A stretch of 46,299 nt of DNA. Source: Sulfuritalea sp. Lineage in GTDB: Bacteria; Pseudomonadota; Gammaproteobacteria; Burkholderiales; Rhodocyclaceae. Both the position numbers and the translations under genes were made by a program. Location: NCBI GenBank assembly GCA_030696505.1, contig JAUYSD010000389.1:1-46299 (forward strand), given 5' to 3'. The stretch's first letter is position 1. Each line of letters starts with the position of its first letter. The notes under the pieces were generated by a model. It saw only the letters and a list, made by a program, of their open reading frames with translations, ran no database searches and had not been told where the DNA came from. This document shows positions 834 through 44,902 of this stretch, piece by piece.

Positions 834-1868
834 ATGGATATCCTGACTCACGCCGTGATGGGGGCGACGCTGGCGAGCGGCGCGGCGTCGCTGCTGCAGC
901 ATCGCGGCAAAGAGTTGGCGTTGGCGACACGGCGTACCGCGGCCCTCGTCGGCGCCGCCGCCGGCCTGCTGCCCGATGCCGACGCGCTGATCCAGAGCGG
1001 CAACGATGCGCTGCTGGTGCTTGATTACCACCGCCATTTCACCCACGCCCTGGCCTTCGTGCCTGTCGGTGCGCTGGTCGCGGCGCTGCTGCTGTGGCCG
1101 CTGCTGCGGCGGCGCATGGGCTTCGGTGCGTTGTACCTGTACGCGCTTGCCGGTTACCTGCCGCATCCGCTGCTCGACGCCTGCACCAGTTACGGCACCC
1201 ACCTGTGGCTGCCGTTTTCGGAACGCAGGGAAGCCTGGAATTTGATTGCGGTGGTCGATCCGCTGTTCACCTTGCTGTTGGCGCTGCCGCTGTTCTTGTT
1301 CCTGCGCCGGCCCGATTCGCAGGCGCTGCGCTGGGGTCTGCTGCTCGCACTGGCTTATTTCGGCCTGGGCGGGTTCCAGCAGCAGCGTGCGCAAACGGCG
1401 GCGACGGAACTGGCGCAGGCGCGCGGCCATCAGGCCACGCAGCTGTCGGTCAAGCCATCGATGGCCAACCTGGTGCTGTGGCGCTCGCTCTATGTCCATG
1501 ACGGACGGGTGCAGGTCGATGCCTTTCACCTGGGATTGAACCTGCGCCACTATCCCGGCGCCTCGGCGCCGCTGCTCGATGCGGCCGGCGCACGGCAGGT
1601 CGCGGCGGGCGAGGCGCGGCGGCTGCTGGACATCGAGCGCTTCCGCGTCTTTTCCGACGGCTTTCTGGTGCTGGATCCGCGACGCCCGGGCTTTGTCGGC
1701 GATGCGCGCTATGCCATGCAGCCGACCGCGATCGCGCCGATCTGGGGCATAGCATGGCGCGGCGCCGGGGCGGCGACGGAATTCGTCAGCCATCACGACT
1801 TTTCGCCCGCGATGCGCCGCGATTTTTTCGCTATGCTGCGGGGCCGCGAGCTTTCCGCAGCCCGATAA
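834..1868 (+). CDS. Membrane-bound metal-dependent hydrolase, YdjM/DUF457 family
   Basis: A 344-residue protein beginning MDILTHAVMGA, the usual opening of the YdjM/YbcI-like (DUF457) membrane-bound metal-dependent hydrolases. Potential metal ligands are visible as LTH near the start, PDAD near residue 45, HRHFTH near residue 65 and HPLLD near residue 105. These are followed by hydrophobic helices near residues 75-95 and 135-155. The C-terminal half is more soluble and may be periplasmic. The cellular substrate of this family is not established. The gene sits nine bases before the permease gene at 1878. A copy of the dispersed repeat (911-934) lies inside it and encodes about KELALATR. Confidence 0.8.
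   Translation: MDILTHAVMGATLASGAASLLQHRGKELALATRRTAALVGAAAGLLPDADALIQSGNDALLVLDYHRHFTHALAFVPVGALVAALLLWPLLRRRMGFGALYLYALAGYLPHPLLDACTSYGTHLWLPFSERREAWNLIAVVDPLFTLLLALPLFLFLRRPDSQALRWGLLLALAYFGLGGFQQQRAQTAATELAQARGHQATQLSVKPSMANLVLWRSLYVHDGRVQVDAFHLGLNLRHYPGASAPLLDAAGARQVAAGEARRLLDIERFRVFSDGFLVLDPRRPGFVGDARYAMQPTAIAPIWGIAWRGAGAATEFVSHHDFSPAMRRDFFAMLRGRELSAAR
911..934 (+). repeat. Dispersed repeat copy 1 (AGAGTTGGCG core), inside the YdjM-like gene
   Basis: Reads AGAGTTGGCGTTGGCGACAC followed by GGCG, one base different from the commonest core. It is translated in a frame (Lys-Glu-Leu-Ala-Leu-Ala) different from that used by the copies at 3525, 5390 and 33128 (Val-Gly-Ala). Similarity is therefore at the DNA level rather than a shared protein motif. 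Confidence 0.7.
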
Positions 1869-1877
1869 TCCGTCCCG

Positions 1878-2855
1878 ATGCTGGCCTACATCATCCGCCG
1901 CCTGCTGTATGCGATCCCGATCCTGATCGGCGTGAATCTGTTGACCTTCGCCCTGTTCTTCGTCGTGAACACGCCGGACGACATGGCGCGCATGCAGCTC
2001 GGCGTCAAGCGCGTGACGCCCGAGGCGATCGAGAAGTGGAAGGCCGAGCGCGGCTACGACCGGCCGCTGGTGTGGAATTCGGCCGCGGCGGGCGGCGCGA
2101 AGCTGACCGAGACGATCCTGTTCAGCAAGTCGGTGCGCATGTTCGTCGGCGATTTCGGCCGCGCCGACGACGGCCGCGACATTGCGCGCGAGATCGGCGA
2201 TCGCATGGGGCCGAGTCTCGCGATCGCGGTGCCGACCTTCGTCCTGGGCCTTTTCGTGGCGATTTCCTTTGCGCTGCTGCTGGTGTTCTTCCGCGCCACG
2301 GCGCTGGATATTTCGGGCGTGGTGCTGTGCGTGGCGATGATGTCGATTTCGGGCCTGTTCTACATCATCGGCGGCCAGTGGCTGGTGTCCAAGGTCTGGC
2401 ATCTGGTGCCGATCTCGGGCTACAGCGGCGGCTTCGACGCCGCGAAGTTCGTGATCCTGCCGGTGATCATCGGCGTGATCGGCGGCATCGGCGCCTCGAC
2501 GCGCTGGTACCGCACCATCTTCCTCGAAGAAATCAGCCGCGACTACGTGCGCACCGCGCGCGCCAAGGGTTTGCCGGAGCGCGTGGTGCTGTTCCGCCAC
2601 GTGCTGAGGAATGCCCTGATCCCGATCCTGACCGGCGTCGTGGTGGTGATCCCGACCCTGTTCATGGGCAGCCTGCTCACCGAATCCTTCTTCGGCATTC
2701 CGGGCCTGGGCAGCTACACCATCGACGCCATCAACGCCCAGGATTTCGCCGTGGTGCGTTCGATGGTCTTCATCGGCTCGGTACTCTACATCCTCGGCCT
2801 GCTGCTGACCGACATTTCCTACACCCTCGCCGATCCGCGGGTGCGGCTGCAATGA
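1878..2855 (+). CDS. ABC importer permease, OppB/DppB/YejB type
   Basis: A 325-residue inner-membrane permease for an oligopeptide-type ABC importer. It starts MLAYIIRRLLYAIPILIGVNLLTF, the typical first helix of DppB/OppB proteins. The ATPase-coupling EAA loop is visible near residues 225-245 (DYVRTARAKGLPERVVLFRH), followed by RNALIPILTG and the conserved LTESFFGIPGLG stretch. It ends IDYTLADPR-like (SYTLADPRVRLQ), as in this family. About six helices are expected. It pairs with the second permease at 2983 and the double ATPase at 4425. No solute-binding protein is visible in the window, so the substrate (peptide, opine or other) cannot be set. Confidence 0.92.
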   Translation: MLAYIIRRLLYAIPILIGVNLLTFALFFVVNTPDDMARMQLGVKRVTPEAIEKWKAERGYDRPLVWNSAAAGGAKLTETILFSKSVRMFVGDFGRADDGRDIAREIGDRMGPSLAIAVPTFVLGLFVAISFALLLVFFRATALDISGVVLCVAMMSISGLFYIIGGQWLVSKVWHLVPISGYSGGFDAAKFVILPVIIGVIGGIGASTRWYRTIFLEEISRDYVRTARAKGLPERVVLFRHVLRNALIPILTGVVVVIPTLFMGSLLTESFFGIPGLGSYTIDAINAQDFAVVRSMVFIGSVLYILGLLLTDISYTLADPRVRLQ

Positions 2856-2871
2856 TTATGCAAGAGGCATT

Positions 2872-2967
2872 CGATCCGCAGATTTCGCCGATTGACGCAG
2901 ATTGGTCAGGGCGATACCTCGCAGCGCTGTCTTTCCATCTGCGAAATCTGCGTCATCTGCGGATTGC
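2872..2967. repeat. Imperfect inverted repeat (ATCCGCAGAT arms) between the permease genes
   Basis: The left arm (2872-2905) starts CGATCCGCAGATTTCGCC and contains GACGCAGATTGG. The right arm (2935-2967) contains CCATCTGCGAAATCTGCG and ends ATCTGCGGATTG. The two arms are near reverse complements, about 30 bases each around a 29-base loop. The element fills nearly all of the 127-base gap between the two permease genes, a position where a stem could adjust relative expression or mRNA stability. It looks like a dispersed palindromic repeat. The longer reading frame that starts at 2902 is open through its right arm, but its start lies inside the repeat. Confidence 0.65.
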
Positions 2968-2982
2968 ACTGAGGTTTTTGGA

Positions 2983-4424
2983 ATGATCCAGCCGGTGCTG
3001 CTGTGGTCGGACGCGCTGCTGTTCGTGCTGATCGCGGCGATAGTCGCGCTGGTCTTTTGGGCGCGGCGTCAGGACGCCCTGCGCGCGGCCTGGGGGCGCG
3101 TGCTGAAGGACGGCATGGCGATGGCGGCGGCGACCGTGCTGGCGGTGTTCGTGCTGATCGGCCTGCTCGATTCGCTGCACTACCGGGCGCGCCTGCCGGC
3201 GCAGCCGGGTGCCGCAGCACGCTATGCGGTGGAGGTGCTCTCGGCGCTCGATGCATTGCTGTCCGACTTGCGCCAGCGCAGCGAGAAGACTTATTCGGCG
3301 CCGCTGGCAACCCACTTGTTCGCCAGGGAGGCACTGGAGAATTCGACCCAGCGCGAATTCCCGCGGCTCAAGCATGGCGGCGCGCATCTCGGCGCGGACC
3401 TTTCCAATCACGAGTTCGACATCGCCGTGCGCGTCTCGCGCGGCTGCGCCGGCGGCCTACTGGTCTGGCTGCTGCTGGTGAGCGCGTGGTGCCGGTGGCG
3501 CGGCGTGGCAGTCGTCGAAATGCTGAAAGTTGGCGCTTGCCGGCCCGCGGTCTCGACACACCCGGGATTCCGCTTCGCGGCGGGCGAGCGGAATCCCCAG
3601 CAGACAGAGTCCGGCACGGCGATTCGTCCGGTGTTTCTCACGCTGCTGCCGATCCTGCTGCTGTTCGGCATCGCGATCGCGGTGGGCGGCGGCTACCACG
3701 TCTTCGGCACCGACAAGGTGGGCCAGGACGTGCTTTATCTCTCGCTCAAGAGCATACGCACCGGCTTGCTGATCGGCACCCTGACCACGCTGGTGATGCT
3801 GCCGCTGGCCGTGCTGCTGGGCATCCTCGCCGGCTATGTCGGCGGCTGGGTCGACGACCTGATCCAGTACCTGTACACCACGCTCTCCTCGATTCCCGGC
3901 GTGCTGCTGATCGCCGCCGCGGTGCTGATGATGCAGGTGGTGATCGACACCCATCCCGAGTGGTTCGCCACTTCGGCCGAGCGCGCCGACGCGCGTCTTT
4001 TGGCGCTCTGCCTGATCCTCGGCATGACCAGCTGGACCGGTGTGGCGCGCCTCTTGCGCGGCGAGACGCTGAAGCTGCGCGAGCTGGAATTCGTCCAGGC
4101 GGCGCAGGCCTTCGGCGTCGGCCGCTTCGCCATCATGCGCCGCCACATCCTGCCCAACCTGATGCATATCGTGCTGATCGCGCTGGTCATGGATTTCTCC
4201 GGCCTGGTGCTGGCCGAGGCCGTGCTGTCCTATGTCGGCGTCGGCGTCGATCCGACCACGATTTCCTTCGGCACCATGATCAACACGGCGCGCATGGAAC
4301 TGGCGCGCGAGCCCATGGTCTGGTGGTCGCTGGCGGCGGCCTTCAGCTTCATGTTCGCCCTGGTGCTGGCCGCCAACCTGTTCGCCGACGCGGTGCGCGA
4401 CGCCTTCGACCCGAGGGCGTCGGC

Positions 4425-4428
<4 letters not shown>
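2983..4428 (+). CDS. ABC importer permease, OppC/DppC/YejE type, with enlarged N-terminal part
   Basis: A 481-residue inner-membrane permease, partner of the 1878 gene. I chose the ATG at 2983 because the upstream extension (from 2902) lies in a repeat. The core permease is in the last 270 residues. It contains FGTDKVGQDV near residue 241, EFVQAAQAFGVGRFAIMRRHILPN (EAA loop), VLSYVGVGVDP and a final DAVRDAFDP, all typical of DppC. Ordinary members are about 280-340 residues, so this one has roughly 150 extra N-terminal residues with two additional hydrophobic segments. A palindromic repeat (3525-3630) lies in frame between the extension and the core. It overlaps the ATPase start by ATGA (4425-4428), indicating translational coupling. 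Confidence 0.9.
3525..3630 (+). repeat. Composite palindromic repeat inserted in frame within the permease gene
   Basis: The left module GAAAGTTGGCGCTTGCCGGC matches the dispersed repeat. A perfect 11-base inverted repeat follows: GGGATTCCGCT at 3564-3574 and AGCGGAATCCC at 3587-3597. A right module then contains GCAGACAGAGTCCGGCACGG. Left and right modules recur contiguously on the opposite strand at 44821-44902. The whole element is translated in frame, adding about 35 residues (KVGACRP to GTAIRP) between hydrophobic segments of the permease. Confidence 0.75.
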
Positions 4429-6409
<1,981 letters not shown>

Positions 6410-6413
<4 letters not shown>

Positions 6414-9995: not shown

Positions 9996-10775
9996 CTAGA
10001 AGCGGTTCTTCCACTCGCGGATGGCGGCGAAAGTCTCCACCGCGTCGGCCGGCACGTGGCCGAGGCGGCTGGCCGCGGCGGCGCGCACGGCCGGCACATC
10101 CCAGCGCAGGAAGGGATTGGTTTCCAGTTCGGTGCGGATGCGCGTCGGGATCGTCGCGCGGCCCGCCGCGCGCTCCGCCGCGACTTCCTCGCTGCGTCGC
10201 TGCACGGCGATGCTGCCGGGTTCGACGGCGACGGCGAAACGCAGGTTGCTCTGGGTGTATTCGTGGGCGCAGTACACAAGAGTTGCCGCTGGCAAGGCGG
10301 CGAGTCTGGCCAGCGAGGCATGCATCTGCGCCGGCGTGCCTTCGAACAGGCGTCCGCAGCCCGCGCCGAACAGCGTGTCGCCGCAGAACAGCGCGCCGTC
10401 ATCGCCGAGACTTGGGCCATAATAGGCGATGTGGCCGCGGGTATGTCCAGGCACGTCGATGATCTCGAATTCGGTACCGATCTGCGGCAGTTCGATGCGT
10501 TCGCCGCCGGCCAGCGCCTGCGTCACGCCGGGGATGTCCTCCCGCAGCGGGCCGAAGACGGGAACTGGAAAGCGGGCGACAAGTTCCGCCAGGCCGCCGA
10601 CGTGGTCGCCGTGGTGATGGGTGGCGAGAATCGCACAGAGGCGGTCGCCGCTGGCTTCGAGATGGCGCAGCACCGGTGCGGCGTCGCCCGGGTCGACCAC
10701 CGCGACGTGCCCGCCGGCGCGCAGCAGCCAGATGTAGTTGTCGTCGAAAGCGTGCAGGGCAAGTATTTCAATCAT
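9996..10775 (-). CDS. gloB: Hydroxyacylglutathione hydrolase (glyoxalase II)
   Basis: A 259-residue cytoplasmic metallo-beta-lactamase-fold enzyme. It hydrolyses S-D-lactoylglutathione to D-lactate and glutathione, the second step of methylglyoxal detoxification. The binuclear metal motif THHHGDH is at residues 52-58. Further ligands are in VPGHTRGH and FCGDTLFGAGCGRLFEG, and YCAHEYT near residue 170 supplies another histidine. Length matches the family. It is divergent from the methyltransferase gene, with starts only 27 bases apart. The gloB / methyltransferase / rnhA / dnaQ neighbourhood is typical of beta- and gammaproteobacteria. The D-lactate product could feed the lut operon further along, although that system is usually described for L-lactate. 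Confidence 0.95.
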   Translation of the reverse strand: MIEILALHAFDDNYIWLLRAGGHVAVVDPGDAAPVLRHLEASGDRLCAILATHHHGDHVGGLAELVARFPVPVFGPLREDIPGVTQALAGGERIELPQIGTEFEIIDVPGHTRGHIAYYGPSLGDDGALFCGDTLFGAGCGRLFEGTPAQMHASLARLAALPAATLVYCAHEYTQSNLRFAVAVEPGSIAVQRRSEEVAAERAAGRATIPTRIRTELETNPFLRWDVPAVRAAAASRLGHVPADAVETFAAIREWKNRF

Positions 10776-11959: not shown

Positions 11960-11962
11960 GGA

Positions 11963-18109: not shown

Positions 18110-19699
18110 GTGAGCACAGCTGTGTCCGCCGCCTTGCCGGCACCCTTGCTGTTCGCCGCCGGGGAGGGCCGCCTGGCGGCGCTGGATGGCTTGGCGCGCG
18201 CGCTCTGGCTGGGCGGGCTGACCAATTCGCAGGGCAGCCTGGAACCGCGCCTGGCCGCGCTGGCGGACTTGCGCCGCGAACTGCTGGCCGGCGCCGAGCC
18301 GGCGCCACAAACCTGGCCCTGGCCGCCATTGCCGGCGGCGCAGGCGCTGGCCGCGGCCATTGCCGATCTGGGCCTGCCGCGCTATTGCAGCGGGCAGCAG
18401 GAACTGACCGACACGGTGTTGCTGAGCATCCTGTTCCATCTCGATTTCATCGTCGATTATGTCGATCGCGGCGCCGGCGAGGATGCCGCGCTGCGCATGG
18501 CGATCGAGGCCTTTGCCGCCGACTGGCGGCAGCATTGCGGCCAGATCGACGAACTGGTCGAGGTCTTCGGCATGGTGCCGGACGATTGCGAGCACCAGCG
18601 CTGGGACCGCATGCGCGGCCTGCTGCAGTCCTCCGGCTGGCAGGAGGTGCTGCGCATCCGCCGCCTGCTGGAAGGCCTGCCGGAACTGGTGAAAATCATC
18701 CGCGCGCTGGGCCGCTCGCGCCCCGCCGAGGAGGACGCCGCCGCCAGCCAGACCGTCGTCGAGATCATGCAGCCGGCCACCGCCCGGCGCGCCGAGGCGC
18801 GCACCGTGCGCGTCCCCGACATGCCCGGCGAGACGCGCGGCATCCACCGCTCCGACCGCATCGCGCGCATGCTGCCGGCCGAGGCCATGCTGCTCGGCCA
18901 TCCGCACCTGCGCCTGGTGTGGCACGCGCGGCGCGCCGAGCGCACGCTGCTCAGCTACGAGGACGACGACCGCCTGACCGAGATCCGGCTGCATCAGGCG
19001 CCGGTGGTCGAGCCGCGTCCCGGCCTGCGGCCCGGCAAGCGCCTCGAATTGGGGCCGATCCTGGTCTGCGTCGACACCTCGGGTTCGATGCAGGGCGGCG
19101 CCGAAGCCGTGGCCAAGGCCGTCGTGCTCGAAGCCATGCGCGCGGCCCATGCCCAGCGGCGGCCCTGCCATGTGTTCGCCTTCGGCGGTCCCGAGGAGCT
19201 GGTCGAGATGGAACTCGCGGTCGATGCCGACGGCATCGACCGCGTCACGCAGTTTCTCGGCCAGGCGTTTCGCGGCGGCACCGACATCTGCGGCCCGCTG
19301 GAAAAAGTCATCGCCAAGCTGGAGCAGGAGCGTTGGCAACTGGCCGATCTGCTGATCGCCAGCGACGGCGAATTCGGCGCCACGCCGCAGATTGCCGCAC
19401 GCCTCGACGTCGTCAAGCGCGAGCTGGGCCTGCGCGTGCAGGGCGTGCTGATCGCCGACCGCGAAACCGTCGGCCTGCTCGAAGTGGCCGACAGCATTTA
19501 TCCGGTGCGCGACTGGCGCCGCTACGGCGGTGCCAACGTCGATTCGCCGATCCATACGCACCGCCTCACCGCGCTGTATTTCCCGGGCGCCTTGCGCAAC
19601 GCGGCCAACCAGCAGGCGACTGTCTCCGGCGCGGCGGCCTCGGCGGCGCTGCTCGAGGCGGCGCCGCGGCCCGATCCGGGCGACGGCGTCGTCCCGTGA
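18110..19699 (+). CDS. viaA: VWA-domain protein, ViaA-like partner of the MoxR ATPase
   Basis: A 529-residue protein with a GTG start at 18110, chosen for the purine-rich G-run just upstream; the longer frame overlaps ravA. The C-terminal von Willebrand A domain begins about residue 315. It has the metal-ion adhesion site DTSGSMQ at 322-328, then FGGPEELVEMEL, FRGGTDI (the conserved Thr) and IASDGEFG (Asp). The N-terminal 310 residues are helical and alanine/leucine-rich, as in ViaA. Such proteins bind target complexes and stimulate the MoxR ATPase. The stop overlaps the next start (GTGA, 19696-19699), so the DUF364 protein is likely made in step with it. Confidence 0.88.
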   Translation: MSTAVSAALPAPLLFAAGEGRLAALDGLARALWLGGLTNSQGSLEPRLAALADLRRELLAGAEPAPQTWPWPPLPAAQALAAAIADLGLPRYCSGQQELTDTVLLSILFHLDFIVDYVDRGAGEDAALRMAIEAFAADWRQHCGQIDELVEVFGMVPDDCEHQRWDRMRGLLQSSGWQEVLRIRRLLEGLPELVKIIRALGRSRPAEEDAAASQTVVEIMQPATARRAEARTVRVPDMPGETRGIHRSDRIARMLPAEAMLLGHPHLRLVWHARRAERTLLSYEDDDRLTEIRLHQAPVVEPRPGLRPGKRLELGPILVCVDTSGSMQGGAEAVAKAVVLEAMRAAHAQRRPCHVFAFGGPEELVEMELAVDADGIDRVTQFLGQAFRGGTDICGPLEKVIAKLEQERWQLADLLIASDGEFGATPQIAARLDVVKRELGLRVQGVLIADRETVGLLEVADSIYPVRDWRRYGGANVDSPIHTHRLTALYFPGALRNAANQQATVSGAAASAALLEAAPRPDPGDGVVP

Positions 19700-20553
19700 G
19701 CTTCGCCGCAGACTACCTGGCGCAGCTCGAGGCCTTCGCCGCGCACGGCCCGTTGCCGCGCGTGCGCGCCCTGCATCTGCCGCCGCCGCGTTCGAACGGC
19801 TGCGACGGCGACAACCGCGGCGAATTCTGCGCGCTGGAACTCGATGACGGATCGCTGGGGCTGTCCTATGTCCTGCTCGACGACACGCTGGCGCGTCTGC
19901 GCGACGGCGGGGAGGGCGCGGGCCTGACCGGTGCCGATGCGCTGGCACTGGCGCACCGTTACGCCAGCGGCAACTCTTGCGCGCGGACCCTGGGCTTCGC
20001 CGCGGCCAACGCGCTGACCCGCTGCCTGTTCGACCGTGCGGGCTTCCGTCCCGACGACAGCCGGGATTCGATCGGTCAGATGAACCCGCAGGCCGGCGAG
20101 CGGATCGGCATGATCGGCCTGTTCCGGCCGCTGCTGGGCCGCATCCTCGCGAGCGGCGCGCAGCTCACGGTGGTCGAACTGAGGGCCGAACTGGCGGGCG
20201 ACGCCGCAGGCTACCGCGTCACGCTCGACCCGGGCGAACTCGCCGCCTGCAGCAAGGTGGTGTCGACCAGCACGCTGCTGCTCAACGACACGCTCGACCG
20301 TATGCTCGACCACTGCCGCAATGCGCGCTGGTTCGCCATGGTCGGCCCCAGCGCCGGCTGCCTGCCCGACGCCCTCTTCGCACGCGGCGTGACGCTGCAG
20401 GGCGGCAGCTGGATAAAGGACCGCCAGGGCTTCGTCGATGCGCTGCGGCGCGGTGAAACGCGCAGCGAATTCGCCGGCAAGTTCGCCCTCACCGCCGACA
20501 GCTATCCCGGCTTCGGTGTCCTGCTGGCGCGTGCTTGCGGTGTCGCTGAATGA
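19696..20553 (+). CDS. DUF364-family protein (putative heavy-metal chelation)
   Basis: A 285-residue protein with a GTG start overlapping the VWA stop. It has the two-part layout of DUF4213/DUF364 proteins. The N-terminal part has NGCDGDNRGEFCALELDDGSLGLSY and a central ARTLGFAAANAL. The C-terminal Rossmann-like part has ERIGMIGLFRPLL, STSTLLLNDTLDRML and MVGPSAGCLPDALFARGVTLQGGSW. Family members are annotated as putative heavy-metal chelators and are often near metal or molybdate uptake genes; the exact reaction is unknown. The overlap with the MoxR-VWA pair suggests all three act in one process, possibly metal insertion into an enzyme (inference). Confidence 0.8.
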   Translation: MSFAADYLAQLEAFAAHGPLPRVRALHLPPPRSNGCDGDNRGEFCALELDDGSLGLSYVLLDDTLARLRDGGEGAGLTGADALALAHRYASGNSCARTLGFAAANALTRCLFDRAGFRPDDSRDSIGQMNPQAGERIGMIGLFRPLLGRILASGAQLTVVELRAELAGDAAGYRVTLDPGELAACSKVVSTSTLLLNDTLDRMLDHCRNARWFAMVGPSAGCLPDALFARGVTLQGGSWIKDRQGFVDALRRGETRSEFAGKFALTADSYPGFGVLLARACGVAE

Positions 20554-24952: not shown

Positions 24953-24976
24953 AAGAGTTGGCGCTGGCGATCCGGC
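24953..24976 (+). repeat. Dispersed repeat copy 4, just downstream of the regulator gene
   Basis: Reads AGAGTTGGCGCTGGCGATCC followed by GGCG, 12 bases past the regulator stop at 24938-24940. It is intergenic, in a 229-base gap before the PA2779-like gene that otherwise shows only a good Shine-Dalgarno AAGGAG near 25158. Confidence 0.75.
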
Positions 24977-25169
24977 GATGGCCCGCGCGCATTCGGCCAT
25001 ATTCGGACTGAACTTTGTGGCTGAAGCGGAAGTCGAAAAAGTTCGTCGTCCTGCATAATATGCGCGCTGCGCATCGAGTTGGACGCGGCACGAGCCACGG
25101 TGGCGGTCAGGGTTCGGCAGGTTTCCGCTGCAGCGGCGTCAATAATCCAAAGAAGCCAAGGAGACAATC

Positions 25170-25523
25170 ATGAATAGCGCCTTCAAGAAGATGATGTGCC
25201 GTTTTCTCGCCGTTGCCTTGATTACGCTGCCCTTCCAGACCGGGCAGGCCAGCATGATCAGTACCGACCAGGTGAGTTCCGCCGCGACGGTGCAGGCGAA
25301 TCGCAGCCTGGTGTTGAACCACCTCAACCGCGCGCAGACCGTCAGCGAGTTTCAGGCCCTGGGACTGGACGCGCAGCAAGCCCGCGACCGCGTCGCGGCG
25401 ATGACCGACGAGGAAGTCGGTAATCTGGCCGGCCAGATCAATGCGGTTCCGGCCGGTGGCGACGGCCTCGTTGCGCTTATCCTGGTCGTGTTCTTCATCT
25501 GGTACTTTGCTTTCCGCCGCTAG
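25170..25523 (+). CDS. PA2779-family small exported/membrane protein
   Basis: A 117-residue protein with an AAGGAG ribosome-binding site nine bases upstream. A signal-like helix covers about residues 8-28 (MMCRFLAVALITLPFQTGQA). A helical middle reads NRSLVLNHLNRAQTVSEFQALGLDAQQARDRVAAMTDEE, and a C-terminal membrane helix LVALILVVFFIWYFAFRR ends the protein. This arrangement and sequence match the PA2779-like family. Its function is not established; it is nearly always next to a PA2778-like cysteine peptidase, as here 15 bases downstream. Confidence 0.85.
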   Translation: MNSAFKKMMCRFLAVALITLPFQTGQASMISTDQVSSAATVQANRSLVLNHLNRAQTVSEFQALGLDAQQARDRVAAMTDEEVGNLAGQINAVPAGGDGLVALILVVFFIWYFAFRR

Positions 25524-28072: not shown

Positions 28073-29053
28073 TCAGTTTTTCGGGATGACGACTATCTTG
28101 CCCTTGACCTGGCGGTTGGCGATTCTTGCAATCGCATCCTTCGCGTTGGCAAGCGGGAAACTTTCGCTGACCACGGGACGGATCACGCCGGCGGCGAACC
28201 AGTCATTGAGCTGCTGCAGGTTGGCCAGATGGCCGGCCGGATCGTGCTTGGTCGAATCGCCCCAATACACGCCGATCAGCGAACGCTCCTTGAGCAGCGC
28301 CAGATTCAGCGGAATCTTCGGTATCTCGCCGGCGGCGAAGCCGATGATCAGGAGCCGCCCGCGCCAGGCCAGAGCGCGCACCGCGGGCTCGGTGTAGGGG
28401 CCGCCGACCGGATCGTAGACCACGTCGGCGCCTTTGCCGCCCGTGAGTTCGTTGATGCGGTCCTTGAGATTTTCGGTGCTGTAATTCACCGTCTCGTCAG
28501 CGCCAACTTTCCTGCACAGCGCCAGCTTGTCGTCGGAGGACGCGGCGGCGATCACGCGCGCGCCCATGGCCTTGCCGATCTCGATCGCCGAGATGCCGAC
28601 GCCGCCGGCGGCGCCGAGCACCACCAGGGTCTCAGTGGGTTTTAGGTGGCCGCAATCCTTCAGCGCGTGCAGCGAGGTGCAGTAGGTCAGCACCAGCGCC
28701 GCGCCGGCCGCGAAATCCATGCCGGCCGGCAGGGGCATCACGCGATGCGCTTCGGCCAGGCATTCCTCGGCGAAGCCGCCGGTGCTGGTCAGCGCGATGA
28801 CGCGGTCGCCGGCCTTGAAATGCTTGACCTCGGCGCCGACCGCCTTGACGATGCCAGCGATCTCGGCGCCAGGCGTGAAGGGCAGCGGCGGCTTGACCTG
28901 ATAAAGGCCCTGCACCATCAGCGCATCGGGGAAGTTGACGGCCGCGGCCCTGACTTCGATCAATAGCTGTTTGGGGCCGGGCAGGGGGGAGGGGATGTCC
29001 TTGACGACGAGGGTGTCGATCGGACCGTAGGCTTCGCAGACGAGTGCTTTCAT
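28073..29053 (-). CDS. NADPH:quinone oxidoreductase family, zinc-independent medium-chain dehydrogenase
   Basis: A 326-residue protein starting MKALVCEAYGPIDTLVV, a typical Qor start. The Rossmann glycine motif is LVVLGAAGGVGISAIEIGKAMGA near residue 145. The segment CRKVGADETVNY and GGKGADVVYDPVGG follow in the expected order. The usual zinc-binding cysteines are missing, which fits the quinone oxidoreductase or enoyl reductase branch. The reaction is NADPH-dependent reduction of a quinone or activated double bond. It lies between the SDR and the ALDH in one apparent operon. Bases 28491-28512 within this gene resemble the dispersed repeat, but the residues they encode are normal for the family. 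Confidence 0.93.
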   Translation of the reverse strand: MKALVCEAYGPIDTLVVKDIPSPLPGPKQLLIEVRAAAVNFPDALMVQGLYQVKPPLPFTPGAEIAGIVKAVGAEVKHFKAGDRVIALTSTGGFAEECLAEAHRVMPLPAGMDFAAGAALVLTYCTSLHALKDCGHLKPTETLVVLGAAGGVGISAIEIGKAMGARVIAAASSDDKLALCRKVGADETVNYSTENLKDRINELTGGKGADVVYDPVGGPYTEPAVRALAWRGRLLIIGFAAGEIPKIPLNLALLKERSLIGVYWGDSTKHDPAGHLANLQQLNDWFAAGVIRPVVSESFPLANAKDAIARIANRQVKGKIVVIPKN

Positions 29054-31634: not shown

Positions 31635-33158
31635 ATGCGACAACTCAGCGAGCACGATGCCGCGTACATTTATTCGGACAGCGCCCACGCCAACTCGAAC
31701 GTCACACTGCTGCACATCTACGACCAGTCCACCGCGCCGGGCGGCATGGTGCGCTTCAAGCAGATCCTGGCGCATGTCGAAAGCCGGCTCGACCGCCTGC
31801 CGGTGTTCCGCCAGAAGATCCTGCGCGTGCCGCTCGATCTCGACTATCCGTACTGGATCGAGGACGAGAGTTTCGACATCGAATACCACGTGCGCCACAT
31901 CGCCCTGCCCAAACCCGGCGACTGGCGCCAGTTCTGCATCCAGGCCTCGCGCATCCACGCCCGTCCGCTCGATCTGCAGCGCCCGCTGTGGGAAATGTAT
32001 GTGATCGAGGGCCTCGACAGCTTTCTCGATCTGCCGGTGGGCAGCTTTGCGGTACTGCTGAAGATCCACCATGCCGCGATCGACGTCACCCAGGGCAATG
32101 CGATCATCACCGTGCTGCATGACCTCGCACCCGATGCGCCGCCGTCCGCGCCGCCCGTGCCCTGGTTTCCCGAATCGGCGCCGGGCACGCTGGGCTTGCT
32201 GGCGCGCGCCGGGTTCAACGTCGCCACCTTTCCGCTGCGCATGGCGCAGCCGCTGGCACGCAGCTGGACCACGCTGAAATCGGCCGCGAGCACCCTGGTC
32301 GGCGAGTTCCTCGGCCGGCCGCAGGAGTTTCCCGTGACGCGCTTCAACAGCGTGGTGTCGCCGCACCGCGTGTTCGACACGCGCCGCTTTGCGCTGCGGG
32401 ATTTCAAGGCGATTCGCGAGCTGGCGCCCGGCGCCACGGTCAATGACGTGGTGCTGGCGGTGTGCGCCGGCGGCCTGCGGCGCTATCTCGACCTGCAGGG
32501 CGAACTGCCGGAAGAGAGCCTGGTCGCGGCGGCGCCGATCGCCGTGCGCAGCTCCGGCGAGCCGGACGCGCCGGCCAGCTTCGCCTGGGTGCGCCTGGGG
32601 CTGGCCACCGACATCGTCGATCCGGCCGCGCGCCTGGCGGCGATCCAGGCCACCAGCTCGTCCTCGGAACTCATGACGCGGGCCGTCAGCGCGCGCGAAC
32701 TGATCGAGCTCGCCGAACAGGCGCCGTCGGCCGCCATCGCCGCCACCAGCAAGATGCTGCGCTCCGCCTCGGCCCTGCTCGGCGACTGGGCGCCGCTGGC
32801 CAACTGCGCCATCGCCAACGTGCCCGGCCCGCAAATGCCCTTGTTCCTGCAGGGCGCGCGCCTGACCTACGTCTCGGCCATCATGCCGATTTCCGACGGC
32901 ATGGGCCTGGTGTTCTCGGTCACCAGCTACAGCGAGACGATCGTGATTTCCTTCACCGCCTGCTACGAGCAACTGCCCGATCCCGAGCTGCTGGCGCGGT
33001 GCCTGCGCGACAGCTTCAAGGAATATCTTGCGCTGCTGCGGCCCGCCGCGCGCCGCAAGCCGCGTGCGACCGCGCCCAAGGCGTCGCGACGCAAGCCCGG
33101 CGCCGCTGTACCGCCGACGCGGCGGCGCAGAGTTGGCGCTGGCGCGACGGCGAGCTGA
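31635..33158 (+). CDS. Wax ester synthase / diacylglycerol acyltransferase (WS/DGAT) family
   Basis: A 507-residue acyltransferase that joins an acyl-CoA to an alcohol or diacylglycerol to make storage wax ester or triacylglycerol. The start AALRQLSEHDAAYIY-like (MRQLSEHDAAYIYSDS) matches the family. The catalytic motif is HHAAIDV at 145-151: both His and the Asp are intact, but the usual final Gly is Val. The PLWEMYVIEGL block and the late NVPGPQMPLFLQGARL are also present. The last 45 residues are a Lys/Arg/Pro/Ala-rich tail ending in a translated dispersed-repeat copy. It is flanked by two alpha/beta hydrolase genes and an MFS transporter, consistent with a neutral-lipid locus. Confidence 0.9.
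   Translation: MRQLSEHDAAYIYSDSAHANSNVTLLHIYDQSTAPGGMVRFKQILAHVESRLDRLPVFRQKILRVPLDLDYPYWIEDESFDIEYHVRHIALPKPGDWRQFCIQASRIHARPLDLQRPLWEMYVIEGLDSFLDLPVGSFAVLLKIHHAAIDVTQGNAIITVLHDLAPDAPPSAPPVPWFPESAPGTLGLLARAGFNVATFPLRMAQPLARSWTTLKSAASTLVGEFLGRPQEFPVTRFNSVVSPHRVFDTRRFALRDFKAIRELAPGATVNDVVLAVCAGGLRRYLDLQGELPEESLVAAAPIAVRSSGEPDAPASFAWVRLGLATDIVDPAARLAAIQATSSSSELMTRAVSARELIELAEQAPSAAIAATSKMLRSASALLGDWAPLANCAIANVPGPQMPLFLQGARLTYVSAIMPISDGMGLVFSVTSYSETIVISFTACYEQLPDPELLARCLRDSFKEYLALLRPAARRKPRATAPKASRRKPGAAVPPTRRRRVGAGATAS
33128..33150 (+). repeat. Dispersed repeat copy 5, at the end of the WS/DGAT gene
   Basis: Reads CAGAGTTGGCGCTGGCGCGA followed by CGG, translated as Arg-Val-Gly-Ala-Gly-Ala-Thr-Ala-Ser before the stop at 33156-33158. 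It supplies the last codons of the gene, 12 to 42 bases before the next start at 33170. Confidence 0.75.
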
Positions 33159-34148: not shown

Positions 34149-35336
34149 ATGACGCGCGTCGGCCTCTACTTCGCTTCAGTCCAGTTCCTCTTCGTCACCT
34201 GCTGGACGGTGTATGTGATTTATCTGCCGCAGCTTGCGGCGCAGGCCGGCATCGAAAAGAAGTGGGTCATCTACATCCTGATGGCCGACCAGGCGATTTT
34301 CACGCTGATGGATTTTTCCATCGGCGTCGCCGCCGACCGCGTCGGGCGTACCCTGGGCCGGCTCGGCCGTCTGCTGCTGGTGCTCACCGCCGTGTCCTGC
34401 GCCGCCTTCCTGCTGCTGCCGCTGGTCGCGCCCGGCGGCTCGCCGCTACCCTTCCTGGCGCTGATCGCGGTTTGGGCCGTGACCTCCTCGGCCCTGCGCG
34501 CACCGCCCATGATGATGCTCGGCAAATATGTGCCGGCGCCCGGCGTGCCCTGGGTGGCCACGCTGATGCTGGTCGGCATGGGCGTCGCCGGCGCGATCGC
34601 GCCCTACCTGACGGTCAGCCTGCGCGGCCTCGATCCGCGCCTGCCCTTCGCCCTGTCCTCGATAGCCCTGATCGCCGCGGTGAGCGGCATGCTCTGGGCC
34701 GAGAAGCACCTGGCGGCTTCCGCCGCGGCGCCGCCCGCCGCACCCACGCCGAGGAAACCGCTGAATGTCGATGTGGTGCTGTTCTTCGCCGCCGCAGCGC
34801 TGCTCGGCCTGGGCTTTCAGGTGCATTTCGCGCTGAACTCGGCGCCGCTCTACCTGCGCTTCGCCAAGCCGGCGGAACTCGACCATCTGATGCCGGTGTT
34901 CTGGGTCGGCTTCAACCTGCTGATCTTCGTCGCCTGCCGCGCCAACGAGCGCTTCGGCGGTGCCGCGGTCATGGCCATCGGCGCCGTGCTCGGCGCGCTC
35001 GCCTCGTCGCTGGCAGCCTCCGCAAGCTCGCTGGAAACTTTGCTGGTGCTGCAGTTCCTCGCCGGCGGCGCCTGGGCCGCGGTGCTGGTGAGCGCAATGA
35101 CGGCGGCCATCGCCATCGGTCATGTCGGGCGCGAAGGTGCCGCCACCGGCGGTCTGTTCGCGCTGCTGGCGCTGGCCACCTTTGCGCGCATGGCGCTGGT
35201 GGCGGCGCAACTCAACCAGGACCCCGGCGTCAGCGCGCTGCTGGTCATGCTGCCGGGGTTGGCCTGGGCGGCAGCGGGACTGCTGCTGGCGTGGCTGGCG
35301 CTGCGGGCGCGGGCCGCGGCAGCCGCTGCCGGCTGA
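34149..35336 (+). CDS. Major facilitator superfamily transporter
   Basis: A 395-residue protein with about twelve hydrophobic helices. A soluble loop near residues 190-205 (AASAAAPPAAPTPRKPLN) separates two six-helix halves. The charged motif DRVGRTLGRLGRLLL between helices 2 and 3 is the signature of the superfamily. A ribosome-binding site AGGGG lies eight bases upstream. It is the last gene of the lipid cluster and may export or import a metabolite of that pathway; the substrate and direction are not visible from the sequence. Confidence 0.88.
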   Translation: MTRVGLYFASVQFLFVTCWTVYVIYLPQLAAQAGIEKKWVIYILMADQAIFTLMDFSIGVAADRVGRTLGRLGRLLLVLTAVSCAAFLLLPLVAPGGSPLPFLALIAVWAVTSSALRAPPMMMLGKYVPAPGVPWVATLMLVGMGVAGAIAPYLTVSLRGLDPRLPFALSSIALIAAVSGMLWAEKHLAASAAAPPAAPTPRKPLNVDVVLFFAAAALLGLGFQVHFALNSAPLYLRFAKPAELDHLMPVFWVGFNLLIFVACRANERFGGAAVMAIGAVLGALASSLAASASSLETLLVLQFLAGGAWAAVLVSAMTAAIAIGHVGREGAATGGLFALLALATFARMALVAAQLNQDPGVSALLVMLPGLAWAAAGLLLAWLALRARAAAAAAG

Positions 35337-35358: not shown

Positions 35359-35383
35359 CGCCGTCTCGCCAGCGCCAACTTTC
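35359..35383 (-). repeat. Dispersed repeat copy 6, between convergent genes
   Basis: On the minus strand it reads AAAGTTGGCGCTGGCGAGAC followed by GGCGG. It fills most of the 77-base gap between the convergent MFS and GGDEF/EAL genes. Confidence 0.75.
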
Positions 35384-35413: not shown

Positions 35414-38392
35414 TCAGCTGATCGGCACCATTTCGGCGGCCGGCATCGGCCGCGCGAACAGGTAGCCCTGGCCGTAGTCGCAGCCGGCGGCCTTCAGCAG
35501 CTCGCATTGCTCCTGGGTTTCGATGCCCTCGGCGATCACCTGCAACCCGAGCTTGTGAGCCATGACCACGATGGCTTCGACGATCGCCTGGTCGTCGTGA
35601 TCGGTGGCCATGTCGCGCACGAAGGACTGGTCGATCTTGATGAAGTCGAGCGGGAAGCGTTTCAGGTAGGACATCGCCGAATAGCCGGTGCCGAAATCGT
35701 CGAGCGACACGCGGAAACCGGCGGCGCGGAACTGCCTCAGCTTGGCGGCGACTTCGGGCCGGTCGTCGAGCAGCAGGCCTTCGGTGATTTCGATGGCGAT
35801 GCAGCGGGCCGGCAGCCCGATCTCATTGAGGTAATCGACCCAGGTCTCATGGGTGTTGCCCGAAAAAAACTGGCGCGGCGACTTGTTCACGCTGATCTGG
35901 ATCAGCCCGTCGTCGCGCGCATCGAGCAGGCCCAGGTCGTACCAGCGCTTGGCCGTGCGTGCCGATTCCCTGAACACCCAGTCGCCGATTTCGTTGATCA
36001 GGCCGGTTTCCTCGGCGATCGGAATGAACTGCGCCGGTTCGACCATGCCGTGGGTCGGATGACGCCAGCGCAGCAGCGCCTCGGCCTTCATGACGCGGCC
36101 GGTGGCGAGTTCCACGATGGGCTGCAGATGCACCTCGAGCTGCCCGGCGGCGATGGCGTTGCGCAAGTCGTTGCTGAGCAGCAGCCGGGTTTGTGCCGCC
36201 GCCTGCATCGACGCGGTGAAATAGCTGAAGCGGTTGCGGCCCAGTTCCTTGGCCGCATACATGGCCTGGTCGGCATGCTTGAGCAGGGATTCGACATTGT
36301 CGGCGTCGCTCGGGTAAATCGTGATGCCGATGCTGGCTGAGATATAGGCCGACTCGGTGCCGAGCGTGAACGGCTCGGCCAGGGCCCGCAGCATTGCCTG
36401 GGCCACCTCGCCGACGCGGTCGGTGTCGGCCAGGTCGGACATGATCACCGTGAATTCGTCGCCGCCGAGACGCGCCACGGTATCGGTGGCACGCACGCAA
36501 TCGCAGACGCGGCGCGCCGCCTCGACCAGCAGGATGTCGCCGCTGTGGTGGCCGAGGGTGTCGTTCACTTCCTTGAAGCGGTCGAGGTCGACGAACAGCA
36601 GTGCCACGGACAGGCCGCCGCGTTGCGCTTTCAGCAGTTCCTGCTGCAGGCGGTCGCGGAACAGGCGGCGGTTGGGCAGATCGGTCAGGGAATCGTAGTT
36701 GGCCTGGCGCCAGATGGTTTCCTCGGTGCGCTTCTTTTCCGTGATGTCGGAGGACATGGCGATGCGCCGCAGCACCTTGCCATTGGCGTCGCAGATGGTG
36801 CTGATCGACAGCCACTCCGGGTATTCCTCGCCGCACTTGCGCCGGTTCCAGATCTCGCCCTGCCAGCGCCCGGTGGTTTTCAGCGCGTGCCACATCTCCT
36901 GGTAGAAGGGCAGGTCGTGGCGTCCGCTCTTGAGCAGGTTGGAGTCCTGGCCGATGGCTTCGTGCGGGGCATAGCCGGTCACCTGGGTGAAGGCCGGATT
37001 GATGGCGATGATGCGGTTGTCGGCATCCGTCACCGCGATCGCTTCGCTGACCGCCTGGTGCACCGAGGCGGCGATCTGCAGCTCGTTCTCGGTGCGCTTG
37101 CGCTCGATCGCGAGTCCGGCCAGTTGGGCCGCTTCGTGCATCAGCTCGATGTCGCCGACATCGGGTACCGCCGGGTGGATCCAGAAAAACGCAAAAACGC
37201 CGAGCACGTCGCCGTTGATGGCGAGGATGGGTTCCGACCAGCAAGACACCTGCTCGCCCTCCAGCGCCGGAGGTCGGCACTCGTCGCAGACGGAATGCAC
37301 GCTGATGTCGTCGACGATCAGGCGCTTGCCGCGATTACCCGCCTTCAGACAGGTGGCGCCGCCGTCAGGGGTTCCGGCGCCGCCAGCGCGCTGCGGCAGG
37401 TTCGCGGCGGCGCCATAGACCAGTTGATGGCCGGGTTCGTCCAGGTGCAGGATGGAGCAGGCCATGCCGTGGGTCTGGCGCTCCGCGCCGACGGCGATCA
37501 GGTGGAGTATCTCGGGCAAGTCGGCGTCCTCGGCGAGGCGGCCGGTGACGGTGCTGCGCGTGCGTTGCCGCTCTTCGCCGCGTTTGCGTGCGGTGATTTC
37601 GAGATTGTTGCCCAGGTAGCCGGTGATCTCTCCCTGGGCATTGTGCAAGGCGATCGCGTTGCCATTGACCCAGACTATCCTGCCGTCGGGCCGCAGGAAG
37701 CGATAGTCCATCGACCACTCGCCCTCGGTCGACCGGGGGCCGCGCCAGATCGCTTCGACGGCTTCCCGGTCGTCCGGATGCAGGGTCCGCGTCCACCCCT
37801 GCCCGGTGGCTTCGTCGGCGGCAAGGCCGGCAATCTCGCACCAGCGGCGGTTCGCAAAAAGGCAATTGCCTTCGCTGTCGATCTGGTAGATGCCCACCGG
37901 CGCATGGGTGGCGAGCATGCGGAAGCGTTCCTCGCTGTCCCTGAGCTGGGACACCCGCTCCCGGATTTTGAGTTCCAGCAGCAGTTGATTGGCTTCGAGC
38001 TGGCGGCGCTGACGGTAAAGCTCGCAGAAGACTTTTACCTTGCTCTGCAGGATGTGGGGTTCGAAGGGCTTGATCAGGTAATCGACGGCGCCGAGTTCAT
38101 AGCCCTTGAACTGCAGTTGAATGTCCTTCATCCCGGCGGTGACGAAGATGATCGGCAGGTGCCGCGTCTTGGGATTCGAGCGCATCAGTTCCGCCGTCTC
38201 GAAGCCGTCCATGCCGGGCATCTGGACGTCGAGCAGCACCAGTGCAAAATCCCGCTTCAGGGTATGGCGCAGCGCATCGTTGCCGGATGTGGCCTTGACC
38301 AGATCGAGCCCCTGATTTCCGAGAACCGCCTCCAGCGCCACCAGGTTTTCCGGGCGGTCGTCGACCAGCAGCAGCGCCACGTTCTCAGTCAT
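35414..38392 (-). CDS. Response regulator with PAS, GAF, GGDEF and EAL domains (c-di-GMP turnover)
   Basis: A 992-residue cytoplasmic protein. An N-terminal receiver (about 5-125) has phospho-acceptor Asp in LVLLDVQMPGMDG and Lys in YLIKPFEP. PAS (about 170-290), GAF (about 305-450) and a second PAS (about 460-575) follow. GGDEF is at 643-647 (ARLGGDEFTV) with an intact RATD inhibitory site five residues earlier. EAL is at 771-773 (KAEALLRW), with DDFGTGYS and the catalytic Lys/Glu residues in IEITEG and DFIKIDQSF. Both activities look possible, so it may switch c-di-GMP synthesis and degradation in response to phosphorylation by the upstream kinase. The start overlaps the cheB stop by eight bases. 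Confidence 0.95.
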   Translation of the reverse strand: MTENVALLLVDDRPENLVALEAVLGNQGLDLVKATSGNDALRHTLKRDFALVLLDVQMPGMDGFETAELMRSNPKTRHLPIIFVTAGMKDIQLQFKGYELGAVDYLIKPFEPHILQSKVKVFCELYRQRRQLEANQLLLELKIRERVSQLRDSEERFRMLATHAPVGIYQIDSEGNCLFANRRWCEIAGLAADEATGQGWTRTLHPDDREAVEAIWRGPRSTEGEWSMDYRFLRPDGRIVWVNGNAIALHNAQGEITGYLGNNLEITARKRGEERQRTRSTVTGRLAEDADLPEILHLIAVGAERQTHGMACSILHLDEPGHQLVYGAAANLPQRAGGAGTPDGGATCLKAGNRGKRLIVDDISVHSVCDECRPPALEGEQVSCWSEPILAINGDVLGVFAFFWIHPAVPDVGDIELMHEAAQLAGLAIERKRTENELQIAASVHQAVSEAIAVTDADNRIIAINPAFTQVTGYAPHEAIGQDSNLLKSGRHDLPFYQEMWHALKTTGRWQGEIWNRRKCGEEYPEWLSISTICDANGKVLRRIAMSSDITEKKRTEETIWRQANYDSLTDLPNRRLFRDRLQQELLKAQRGGLSVALLFVDLDRFKEVNDTLGHHSGDILLVEAARRVCDCVRATDTVARLGGDEFTVIMSDLADTDRVGEVAQAMLRALAEPFTLGTESAYISASIGITIYPSDADNVESLLKHADQAMYAAKELGRNRFSYFTASMQAAAQTRLLLSNDLRNAIAAGQLEVHLQPIVELATGRVMKAEALLRWRHPTHGMVEPAQFIPIAEETGLINEIGDWVFRESARTAKRWYDLGLLDARDDGLIQISVNKSPRQFFSGNTHETWVDYLNEIGLPARCIAIEITEGLLLDDRPEVAAKLRQFRAAGFRVSLDDFGTGYSAMSYLKRFPLDFIKIDQSFVRDMATDHDDQAIVEAIVVMAHKLGLQVIAEGIETQEQCELLKAAGCDYGQGYLFARPMPAAEMVPIS

Positions 38393-43796: not shown

Positions 43797-43814
43797 GTCC
43801 GCCGTTTTGCGGAC
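43797..43814 (-). terminator. Hairpin downstream of dusC
   Basis: GTCCGC (43797-43802) and GCGGAC (43809-43814) form a 6-base stem with loop CGTTTT, five bases past the dusC stop in its direction. No T-tract follows, so a terminator role is only likely by position. Confidence 0.35.
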
Positions 43815-43819
43815 TGGCG

Positions 43820-44812
43820 TCAGCCGGTTTGCGGCTGCGCCGGCACCAATTCGATGCCGGCGCGTTGCAGCGCCGCGCTGATGCCGGAGGCGCAGCGCGC
43901 TTCGCGTACCGCGCCGAACAGGTGCAGCGCTTGCGGATAGCTGCGCTGCATCAGGCCCAGCCATTGCTTGAGACGGCCCGGCGACTGGTGCGGCGGCAGT
44001 TTTTGCTGCACCCGCAGCCAGAACTCGGCGATCATGGCCTGCAGCAGCTTCCAGTCGGCGGCCGGGTCCGGCGTTTCGCCGTCGGCGCGGATGCGCCGCG
44101 CCAGCAGGGGATCGGCAACCGCGCCGCGGCCCAGCATGACATCGGCACAGCCTGTCGCGGCGCGGATGTCGCGGTAGTCGGCGAGCTTCCATACCTCGCC
44201 GTTGGCGATGATCGGCAGCTTTACCGCCTCGCGGATGCGCGCGATCCATTCCCAGCGCACCAGCGGCCGGTAGCCGTCCTCCTTGGTGCGGGCGTGCACC
44301 ACCAGTTCCTGCACACCGCCGGCTTCGAGCGCCAGCGCGCAGTCCAGCGCGCGATCGGTGTTCTCGATGCCCAGCCGCATCTTGGCCGTCACCGGAATCG
44401 ACGCGGGCACGGCGGCGCGCACCGCGCCGGCGATGCGCCGCAACAGCTCCGGCTCGTCGAGCAGCGCTGCGCCGCCGCGATTGCGATTGACCAGCGGCGT
44501 CGGACAGCCGAAATTCAGGTCGATGCCGAAGGGCATGAGCAGCGCCAGATGGGCGGCATTCGCTGCCATCACTGCCGGATCGGAGCCGAGCAGCTGGATG
44601 CGCACCGGCGTGCCGCTGGCGGTGCGCGAGCCCTGCTTCAGTTCGGGACTCAGGCGCGTGTAGCAGGAATGCGGCAGCACGGTGGTGGTGACGCGCACGA
44701 ACTCGGTGACGCACCAGTCGTAGCCGCCGGCGGCAGTCAGCACCGCGCGCAGCACGTCGTCGGCGAGGCCTTCCATGGGAGCGAGGACAATTTTGCCCAA
44801 TGCGCGGCTCAT
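43820..44812 (-). CDS. dusC: tRNA-dihydrouridine synthase, DusC-like
   Basis: A 330-residue flavoenzyme that reduces uridine to dihydrouridine in tRNA. The start MSRALGKIVLAPMEGLADDVLR has the conserved FMN-binding APM. The active-site cysteine is in DLNFGCPTPLVNRNRGGAAL, followed by KMRLGIEN, VHARTKEDGY, NGEVWKLADY and MLGRGAVADPLL, all typical Dus motifs. The pattern (TEFVRV near residue 37 and the C-terminal WLGLMQRSYPQA) fits the DusC branch, which modifies U16, better than DusA or DusB. Start 44812 was chosen; the open frame extends upstream but through the repeat element. Confidence 0.93.
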   Translation of the reverse strand: MSRALGKIVLAPMEGLADDVLRAVLTAAGGYDWCVTEFVRVTTTVLPHSCYTRLSPELKQGSRTASGTPVRIQLLGSDPAVMAANAAHLALLMPFGIDLNFGCPTPLVNRNRGGAALLDEPELLRRIAGAVRAAVPASIPVTAKMRLGIENTDRALDCALALEAGGVQELVVHARTKEDGYRPLVRWEWIARIREAVKLPIIANGEVWKLADYRDIRAATGCADVMLGRGAVADPLLARRIRADGETPDPAADWKLLQAMIAEFWLRVQQKLPPHQSPGRLKQWLGLMQRSYPQALHLFGAVREARCASGISAALQRAGIELVPAQPQTG

Positions 44813-44820
44813 CGAGATTG

Positions 44821-44902
44821 CTGGACGGCGACGAAAAATCGCCGCGTCGGACTCTGTCTGCCGGGGATTCCGCTTCGCGGGCCGGCAAGCGCCAACTCTT
44901 GT
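44821..44902 (-). repeat. Second copy of the composite repeat, upstream of dusC
   Basis: Read on the minus strand: AAGAGTTGGCGCTTGCCGGC (plus 44881-44900), then CCCGCGAAGCGGAATCCCC, then GCAGACAGAGTCCG and a GGCGA/TCGCC hairpin with an A-run loop (near 44826-44842). The modules match the element inside the permease gene at 3525-3630, but here they lack the internal inverted part. The region overlaps the dusC upstream leader. Confidence 0.75.

Follow-up and report, generated by a model that had tools for sequence, protein, structure and literature searches.

A 24-bp repeat dispersed through a Sulfuritalea genome is rather probably a genome-wide 'self' signature with lineage-specific dialects, of the kind represented by DNA uptake sequences (DUS). 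It was detected in a window of 46,299 nucleotides, the whole stretch of DNA that was analysed (contig JAUYSD010000389.1 of assembly GCA_030696505.1). The genome to which the window belongs, here called G000 (4,446,726 bases in 398 contigs), contains about 600 copies, which lie some 5-7 kb apart at permissive places. The interpretation as an uptake signal rests on properties in common with uptake sequences: copies are abundant, evenly spaced and conserved where the surroundings are permissive, they form lineage dialects, and their distribution within one family is patchy.

The preliminary description of the window had reported a short repeat core and had proposed to count it genome-wide. With up to three mismatches the 15-mer core AGAGTTGGCGCTGGC has 12 matches in the window, compared to a mean of 3.6 in shuffled sequences, none of 100 of which reached 12. 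In the whole of G000 (4.45 Mb) the core with up to two mismatches gives 681 matches and the reversed pattern 15, so the count is far above chance. The core is thus real, but the true unit is longer. Alignment of 44 copies, from which those close to locus ends were left out, and then of copies in samples of G000 and of its close relative G044 (0.754 and 0.761 Mb, some 17-18% of each genome), revealed a non-palindromic motif of 24 bp with sharp edges, AGAGTTGGCGCTGGCG-NN-ACGGCG, in summary spelling ARAGTYGGCGCTGGCG-NN-ACGGCG, outside of which no clear conservation extends past about 2 bp. Letters 3-5 are nearly invariant, and two inner positions are free, yet some letters are avoided there. The frame on which the dialects are built consists of two boxes, ARAGTY-N12-ACGGCG, and has the form AGAGTTGGCGCTGGCGNNACGGCG in G000. 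With up to three mismatches the extended motif has 615 matches in G000 and none in the control. In the G000 sample, the contigs of which were picked partly for holding exact copies, 37, 40, 27, 15, 11 and 13 matches carry zero to five mismatches, respectively; the reversed motif is absent there up to four mismatches and has five matches at five. Mismatch cut-offs vary between the analyses (up to three or up to four).

The motif is conserved at the nucleotide level. Aligned pieces of G000 and G044 are 92-95% identical, and over 26 orthologous sites the two conserved blocks of the motif diverge by 2.2-2.6%, its first two letters by 7.7 and 11.5%, and the flanks by 10.6-13.9% over the adjoining 50 bp of each side, dropping to 5.8-7.6% further out. 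Changes affect 17 of 572 positions in the core and 213 of 1716 in the near flank (p 1e-12). At 20 sites within genes, only 4 of 107 fourfold-degenerate positions changed inside the motif, compared to 667 of 4619 outside (p 3e-4). Selection on the protein is therefore ruled out as the explanation of the similarity, as the preliminary description had argued from the use of two reading frames.

Several dialects are built on the two-box frame, including GAGTTGG, GAGTCGG, GTCGACGC and GTCAGTCCC, as derived from consensus sequences of samples of eight genomes and of a pool of named loci. Counting of 10-mers in 80-kb samples revealed two dialects in other genera, AAAAGTCGACGCTGG...ACGGCAA in G090 (genus g61) and GAAAGTCAGTCCC.GCAR.ACGGCG in G267 (genus g26), and both retain ARAGTY, 12 letters, and ACGGC. 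Around the window, GAGTTGG is the usual spelling in G000, G044 and G001 (T in 39 of 43 copies), and GAGTCGG that in ten other genomes of the genus (C in 48 of 49). Orthologous ungapped comparisons between the two groups gave 79 pairs of T versus C and five with C in both, although 57 of the 79 come from a single dehydrogenase gene (position 28487 of the window). The dialect letter differs in place at six of nine loci, which were grouped by eye.

The distribution of the motif is patchy. Among 24 other genomes of the genus, the extended motif with up to three mismatches has 98-566 copies in 23 and only 14 in G016, and 16 genomes of 16 other families have no copies, except for four in one. A survey of 249 genomes from 68 genera of the family found the same-dialect pattern to be abundant in genera g1, g24, g35, g54, g62 and g80. 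A search for the frame without mismatches, which misses dialects altering either box such as part of g35, adds g26 (321-446 copies in six of seven genomes, four in the seventh) and g39 (87 copies in one genome, two in another). Together with g61, which is considered positive on 27 frame matches against 6 in the control and on its 80-kb sample, 9 of the 68 sampled genera are positive. A tenth, g82, is weak with 24 copies in one genome. Motif-low members occur within positive genera (G016, G197, G285 and G128). Elsewhere in the order, the same search of 386 genomes from 50 families showed no enrichment of the frame, with a maximum of 14 matches and controls of up to 16. De novo 10-mer counting in samples of 47-80 kb from the motif-poor G063, G285 and G016 did not reveal a comparable motif; this negative is weak, since the known motif fell outside the 14 top 10-mers for the motif-rich G002 (46 kb), while it was present for G000, G005 and G022.

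Among the 80 of 119 matching stretches listed for a collection of named genomes, exact copies come from records labelled Sulfuritalea, Sulfurisoma, Rugosibacter, Rhodocyclaceae or Rhodocyclales, and a few other metagenome-assembled genomes (MAGs), which points to a Sulfuritalea-like betaproteobacterium as the source of the window. Of 16 genomes reached from the named loci, 14 have 228-708 copies with up to two mismatches, including the record of Sulfurisoma sediminicola BSN1 (G289) with 228; the low pair consists of a Casimicrobiaceae MAG (G297, 5 copies) and a Thiobacillus MAG (G294, 10 copies). The sets of 16 and 249 genomes overlap, as equal counts indicate (for example, G289 matches G091 of genus g62), and are not independent. 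Local accumulations were also observed. A contig of a Sulfuritalea sp. MAG (L050, 230-5588) carries six exact copies on one strand within 6 kb, which is far denser than usual. Some otherwise nearly motif-free genomes have clustered copies, often one-stranded within a cluster (G127 C1:1461265-1502266, G172 C1:1.67-2.01 Mb, G101 C104 and G100 C50), and these clusters might be blocks of DNA imported from motif-bearing relatives. In the motif-poor G016, contig C2 (L296) contains repeats with AGAGGCGCAG units.

The arrangement along the chromosome was examined with 246 located copies with up to three mismatches from the G000 and G044 samples; these include shared orthologous loci and are not all independent. 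According to gene calls made with our own codon-usage script, 147 copies are in genes, 92 (37%) are intergenic and 7 are at edges, in DNA that is about 86% coding. The reading frame of copies in genes is strongly selected: in the sense direction frame 0 (RVGAGxTA) is used 65 times, frame 2 (ELALAxR) 14 times and frame 1 never, and the antisense frames are used 43, 23 and 2 times. The copies are spaced more evenly than chance would have them. Adjacent pairs closer than 500 bp number 0 of 85 in one genome and 1 of 119 in the other, where 7.7 and 9.8 are expected, and none of 2000 simulations was as low for either genome. The coefficients of variation of the spacing are 0.68 and 0.75, compared to 0.89 and 0.96 for random placement. 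No long site-free stretches (islands) were found in the sampled contigs. Strand skew, considered for the complete genome G002, is ruled out by all its exact copies, 36 on the plus and 41 on the minus strand, which are intermixed along the chromosome.

The even spacing, the conservation in place and the lack of strand bias among the exact copies of G002 would also fit an asymmetric, evenly spaced architectural site, to which a nucleoid protein or another organiser of the chromosome binds and which is kept by selection on chromosome structure and has no relation to uptake. However, some 600 copies with 22 specified bases would be unusually long for this function, and the motif has no dyad that could accommodate a dimeric binder. 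An essential architectural site would not usually show a dialect difference in place or a patchy presence between genera, as found here. We therefore regard this explanation as unlikely. A Chi-like signal that stimulates homologous exchange inside the cell as a recombination or repair hotspot could likewise be abundant, evenly spaced and conserved, and might spread by biased conversion. Chi-type signals are short and strand-biased, whereas this motif has 24 bp, no strand bias and near-equal numbers in sense and antisense orientation within genes, which makes a hotspot function improbable.

All seven sites claimed for the window were found, four in genes (911, 3526, 5391 and 33129) and three intergenic, with two reading frames in agreement with our own gene calls. 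They all derive from the motif, but two of the seven supposedly near-identical copies, at 3526 and 44888-44899, are only half-motifs because an element resembling a repetitive extragenic palindrome (REP), with a hairpin, sits within the motif. Three weaker copies, at 10279, 19954 and 28487, can be added to the seven, as good or equal orthologous copies of them occur elsewhere. The features are as follows.

911..934, plus strand: motif copy with one mismatch, in the YdjM-family gene 834-1868, read KELALATRR; box A and the centre are retained in the G044 ortholog.
3526..3537, plus strand: left half of a split motif, AAAGTTGGCGCT, in the ATP-binding cassette (ABC) transporter permease gene 2983-4428, read KVGA; the motif is uninterrupted in the orthologs of G044 (C41:60842) and G005.
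3538..3613, plus strand: 76-bp REP-like doublet replacing GGCG, a net gain of 72 bp in frame, absent from the G044 ortholog.
3614..3621, plus strand: right half of the same split motif, NN plus ACGGCG.
5391..5414, plus strand: motif copy with one mismatch, in the oligopeptide ABC ATPase gene 4449-6413, read GVGAGDTA; in place in G044, G005 and G011, with T or C as dialect letter.
10279..10302, plus strand: decayed copy with three mismatches, in the glyoxalase-II-like gene 9996-10775 (minus strand); better copies stand at the orthologous place in G002, G005 and G022.
19954..19977, minus strand: copy with two mismatches, in the DUF364 gene 19696-20553; its counterpart in the G044 ortholog is perfect.
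24954..24977, plus strand: motif copy with one mismatch, between genes 24185-24940 (GntR/FCD) and 25170-25523.
28487..28510, minus strand: copy with two mismatches, in the zinc-type dehydrogenase gene 28073-29053, read KVGADETVNY; largely kept across 13 genomes, three of which have T as the dialect letter and the other ten C.
33129..33152, plus strand: perfect copy at the 3' end of the WS/DGAT gene 31635-33158, read RVGAGATA-stop; common to G000 and G044, but lacking in the nine more distant genomes that could be aligned at this place.
35359..35382, minus strand: perfect copy between the convergent genes 34149-35336 and 35414-38392.
44888..44899, minus strand: left half of a split motif, AGAGTTGGCGCT, intergenic.
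44848..44887, minus strand: 40-bp REP-like singlet in place of GGCG, with a deduced net gain of 36 bp.
44840..44847, minus strand: right half of this split motif, ACGCGGCG, with one mismatch in box B.

The preliminary description offered a choice between a small mobile or propagated element and a binding site, and suggested that occupied and empty orthologous loci be compared. For 103 of 130 copies in the G000 sample, the G044 sample contains no ortholog that spans the site, and these copies remained unscored. Among the 27 scored sites, 23 align without gaps with the motif in place in G044, two more have the motif beside a 1-base gap, one is split by a 39-bp insert in G044, and the last has no motif there, in a stretch of low complexity; a clean 24-bp insertion was not found among them. 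A broader set of 277 site comparisons with 13 genomes around the window gave 190 ungapped alignments with the motif (144 from the dehydrogenase gene at 28487), 30 with the motif and a small gap, 53 other gapped alignments and 4 messy gaps of 18-32 bases, and again no clean 24-bp empty site was seen. At 33129, the aligned sequence of the nine distant genomes without the motif is not 24 bp shorter, and for this reason the gain of the motif there looks like replacement rather than insertion.

Small insertion elements are thus a poor match for the motif. Its dispersal in both orientations, inside and outside genes and without protein constraint, could be expected of a self-inserting mobile repeat of very small size, comparable to the small dispersed repeats (SDRs) of cyanobacteria, and so could the clusters of exact copies in relatives that are otherwise nearly motif-free. 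The clusters fit imported blocks of DNA equally well, however, and 25 of the 27 sites are common to G000 and its close relative, the dialect letter differs in place, and close neighbours are avoided. A mobile origin is largely refuted for the sites compared and must be considered very improbable overall. Of the earlier proposal the part concerning a binding site or a propagated sequence survives, while the mobile element is unsupported. Least probable of all is a regulatory or RNA-level site, either a transcription-factor operator or a transcript-processing signal: more than a third of the copies are intergenic, but 60% lie in genes and face either way, as a single strand the motif folds about as well as its shuffles do (z 0.12), and among the gaps the convergent ones are 2.5-fold over-used and the promoter-holding divergent ones are depleted (0.58-fold), which argues against a promoter role.

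The hairpin element within the split motifs is a candidate mobile sequence. Its core is CCCGCGAAGCGGAATCCC and it sits in place of GGCG, either as a 40-bp singlet or as a 76-bp doublet, in both orientations. The examined DNA has 29 matches to the hairpin core with up to three mismatches, of which 12 are flanked by motif halves left and right and 6 on a single side, while the other 11 have no motif half beside them; some of these 11, but not all, resemble chance coding matches. One empty-site pair was found, at 3526 of the window versus G044. The predicted stability of the hairpin is not significant (z -1.13). Further sites of the hairpin within the motif are the following.

G000: contigs C105, C131, C157 and C180.
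G044: C41:9487, C4:194098, C59:10350, C59:14225 and C2:68870.

Singlets and doublets in both orientations, together with Y1 transposase proteins (Y1_Tnp, PF01797) as candidate partners in six of eight genomes tested, resemble REP sequences and REP doublets forming hairpins (REPINs) with their Y1 transposases of the REP-associated tyrosine transposase (RAYT) type. This likeness concerns the inserted hairpin and not the 24-bp motif, and the preference for the motif as a target is its unusual point. At the split sites, it appears, a mobile element exploits a signature of the genome as a place where landing does no harm. Other hairpin-rich inserts also split motif copies, one of 39 bp in G044 near C2 72874 (ortholog of G000 C105:4633) and another in the G005 ortholog of G044 C41:13367.

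If the motif is an uptake signal, DNA that carries the two boxes would be preferred by a receptor on the cell surface, for which a type IV minor pilin is the most likely candidate. Imported DNA of kin would then overwrite motif-poor alleles by recombination, and because of this overwriting copies would accumulate, stay conserved and shift their dialect jointly with a changing receptor. Patterns of this kind are considered explicable, in the known systems, by biased uptake and subsequent recombination alone (excerpts of PMC7811141 and PMC2397512). Machinery for uptake is in place, as the transformation channel ComEC (PF03772) is present in 46 of 46 genomes. In G000 two clusters resemble minor-pilin operons as read by eye, each with a PF16732 pilin, and Protein Data Bank (PDB) look-ups with two G000 pilins returned general pilins only. 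Dedicated receptors in the class formed by DUS and uptake signal sequences (USS) are ComP and, as a prediction, PpdA/ComN.

Several observations weigh against an uptake function. ComEC does not track the motif, being present in motif-free genomes as well and in 10 of 14 control genomes. Pilins of family PF16732 (ComP_DUS) are found in 45 of 46 genomes irrespective of whether the motif is abundant or scarce, and the motif-bearing G090 has no match. As markers of a receptor that tracks the motif both families were rejected, since neither separates motif-rich from motif-poor genomes. The neisserial DUS is a 10-13-mer of which inverted pairs serve as terminators. Such pairs are absent here, as the near lack of neighbours within 500 bp shows. 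The motif is 24 bp long, compared to about 13 nucleotides quoted for DUS in the excerpted text of PMC12616744, and its density of about one copy per 5-7 kb is below the spacing of about 1 kb that a passage of PMC7811141 quotes for the USS of Haemophilus influenzae. Known uptake sequences show an orientation preference in genes, and those of Pasteurellaceae a bias towards gene ends (PMC2346458, in part); the copies studied here have no orientation preference (79 sense, 68 antisense) and no visible bias along genes or towards their ends. Depletion in foreign DNA was judged by local G+C as the sole measure, which is a weak proxy: the density is 0.9-1.0 per 10 kb at 55-60% and 2.2-2.3 above 69%, the latter comparison including few windows. 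Finally, at least 120 stretches of a viral-contig collection, host flank and phage taken together, hold exact copies (80 of them are L303-L382).

In the excerpts of PMC3630211 and PMC7811141, Neisseriaceae and Pasteurellaceae figure as the families characterised by sequence-specific DNA uptake. For Rhodocyclaceae, the literature searched, with few subscription journals, described neither this motif nor any uptake sequence. In view of the above, the prospects are evenly balanced that the motif represents a third, independently evolved family of uptake sequences, with a long two-box structure (6 + 12 + 6), a presence in nine or more genera of Rhodocyclaceae-type betaproteobacteria, dialects rewritten in place genome-wide, and a REP-like hairpin landing in the motif. 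If this is true, the third family would be an environmental one, with several dialects, motif-free relatives and at least one named isolate. It would then provide an independent test of how uptake systems arise, by molecular drive or by selection, as well as a test of how a receptor and hundreds of sites change together and of whether uptake signals isolate species.

Among the systems with which the motif can be compared, the cyanobacterial SDRs are of similar length and occur inside and outside genes, and they are described as inserted elements, whereas insertion was seen for the Rhodocyclaceae motif neither at the 27 sites nor in the 277 comparisons. The USS of Pasteurellaceae is closer, as it is also a discontinuous motif with a core and spaced flanking parts and has two dialects (PMC12616744 and PMC7811141, both in part). 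The sequences are different, and the second box of the Rhodocyclaceae motif is G+C-rich where the USS has AT tracts. From the neisserial DUS the motif differs by an unrelated sequence and by its two boxes instead of a continuous word. The DUS is nevertheless conserved within more divergent, 'permissive' surroundings, as preliminarily is the USS (Treangen 2008, PMC2397512, in excerpt), and the Rhodocyclaceae motif resembles it in having many copies that are conserved at permissive places. A further likeness, according to excerpts of Frye 2013 (PMC3630211), is that the DUS has lineage dialects with fixed core letters, while some genera of its family are without an obvious one.

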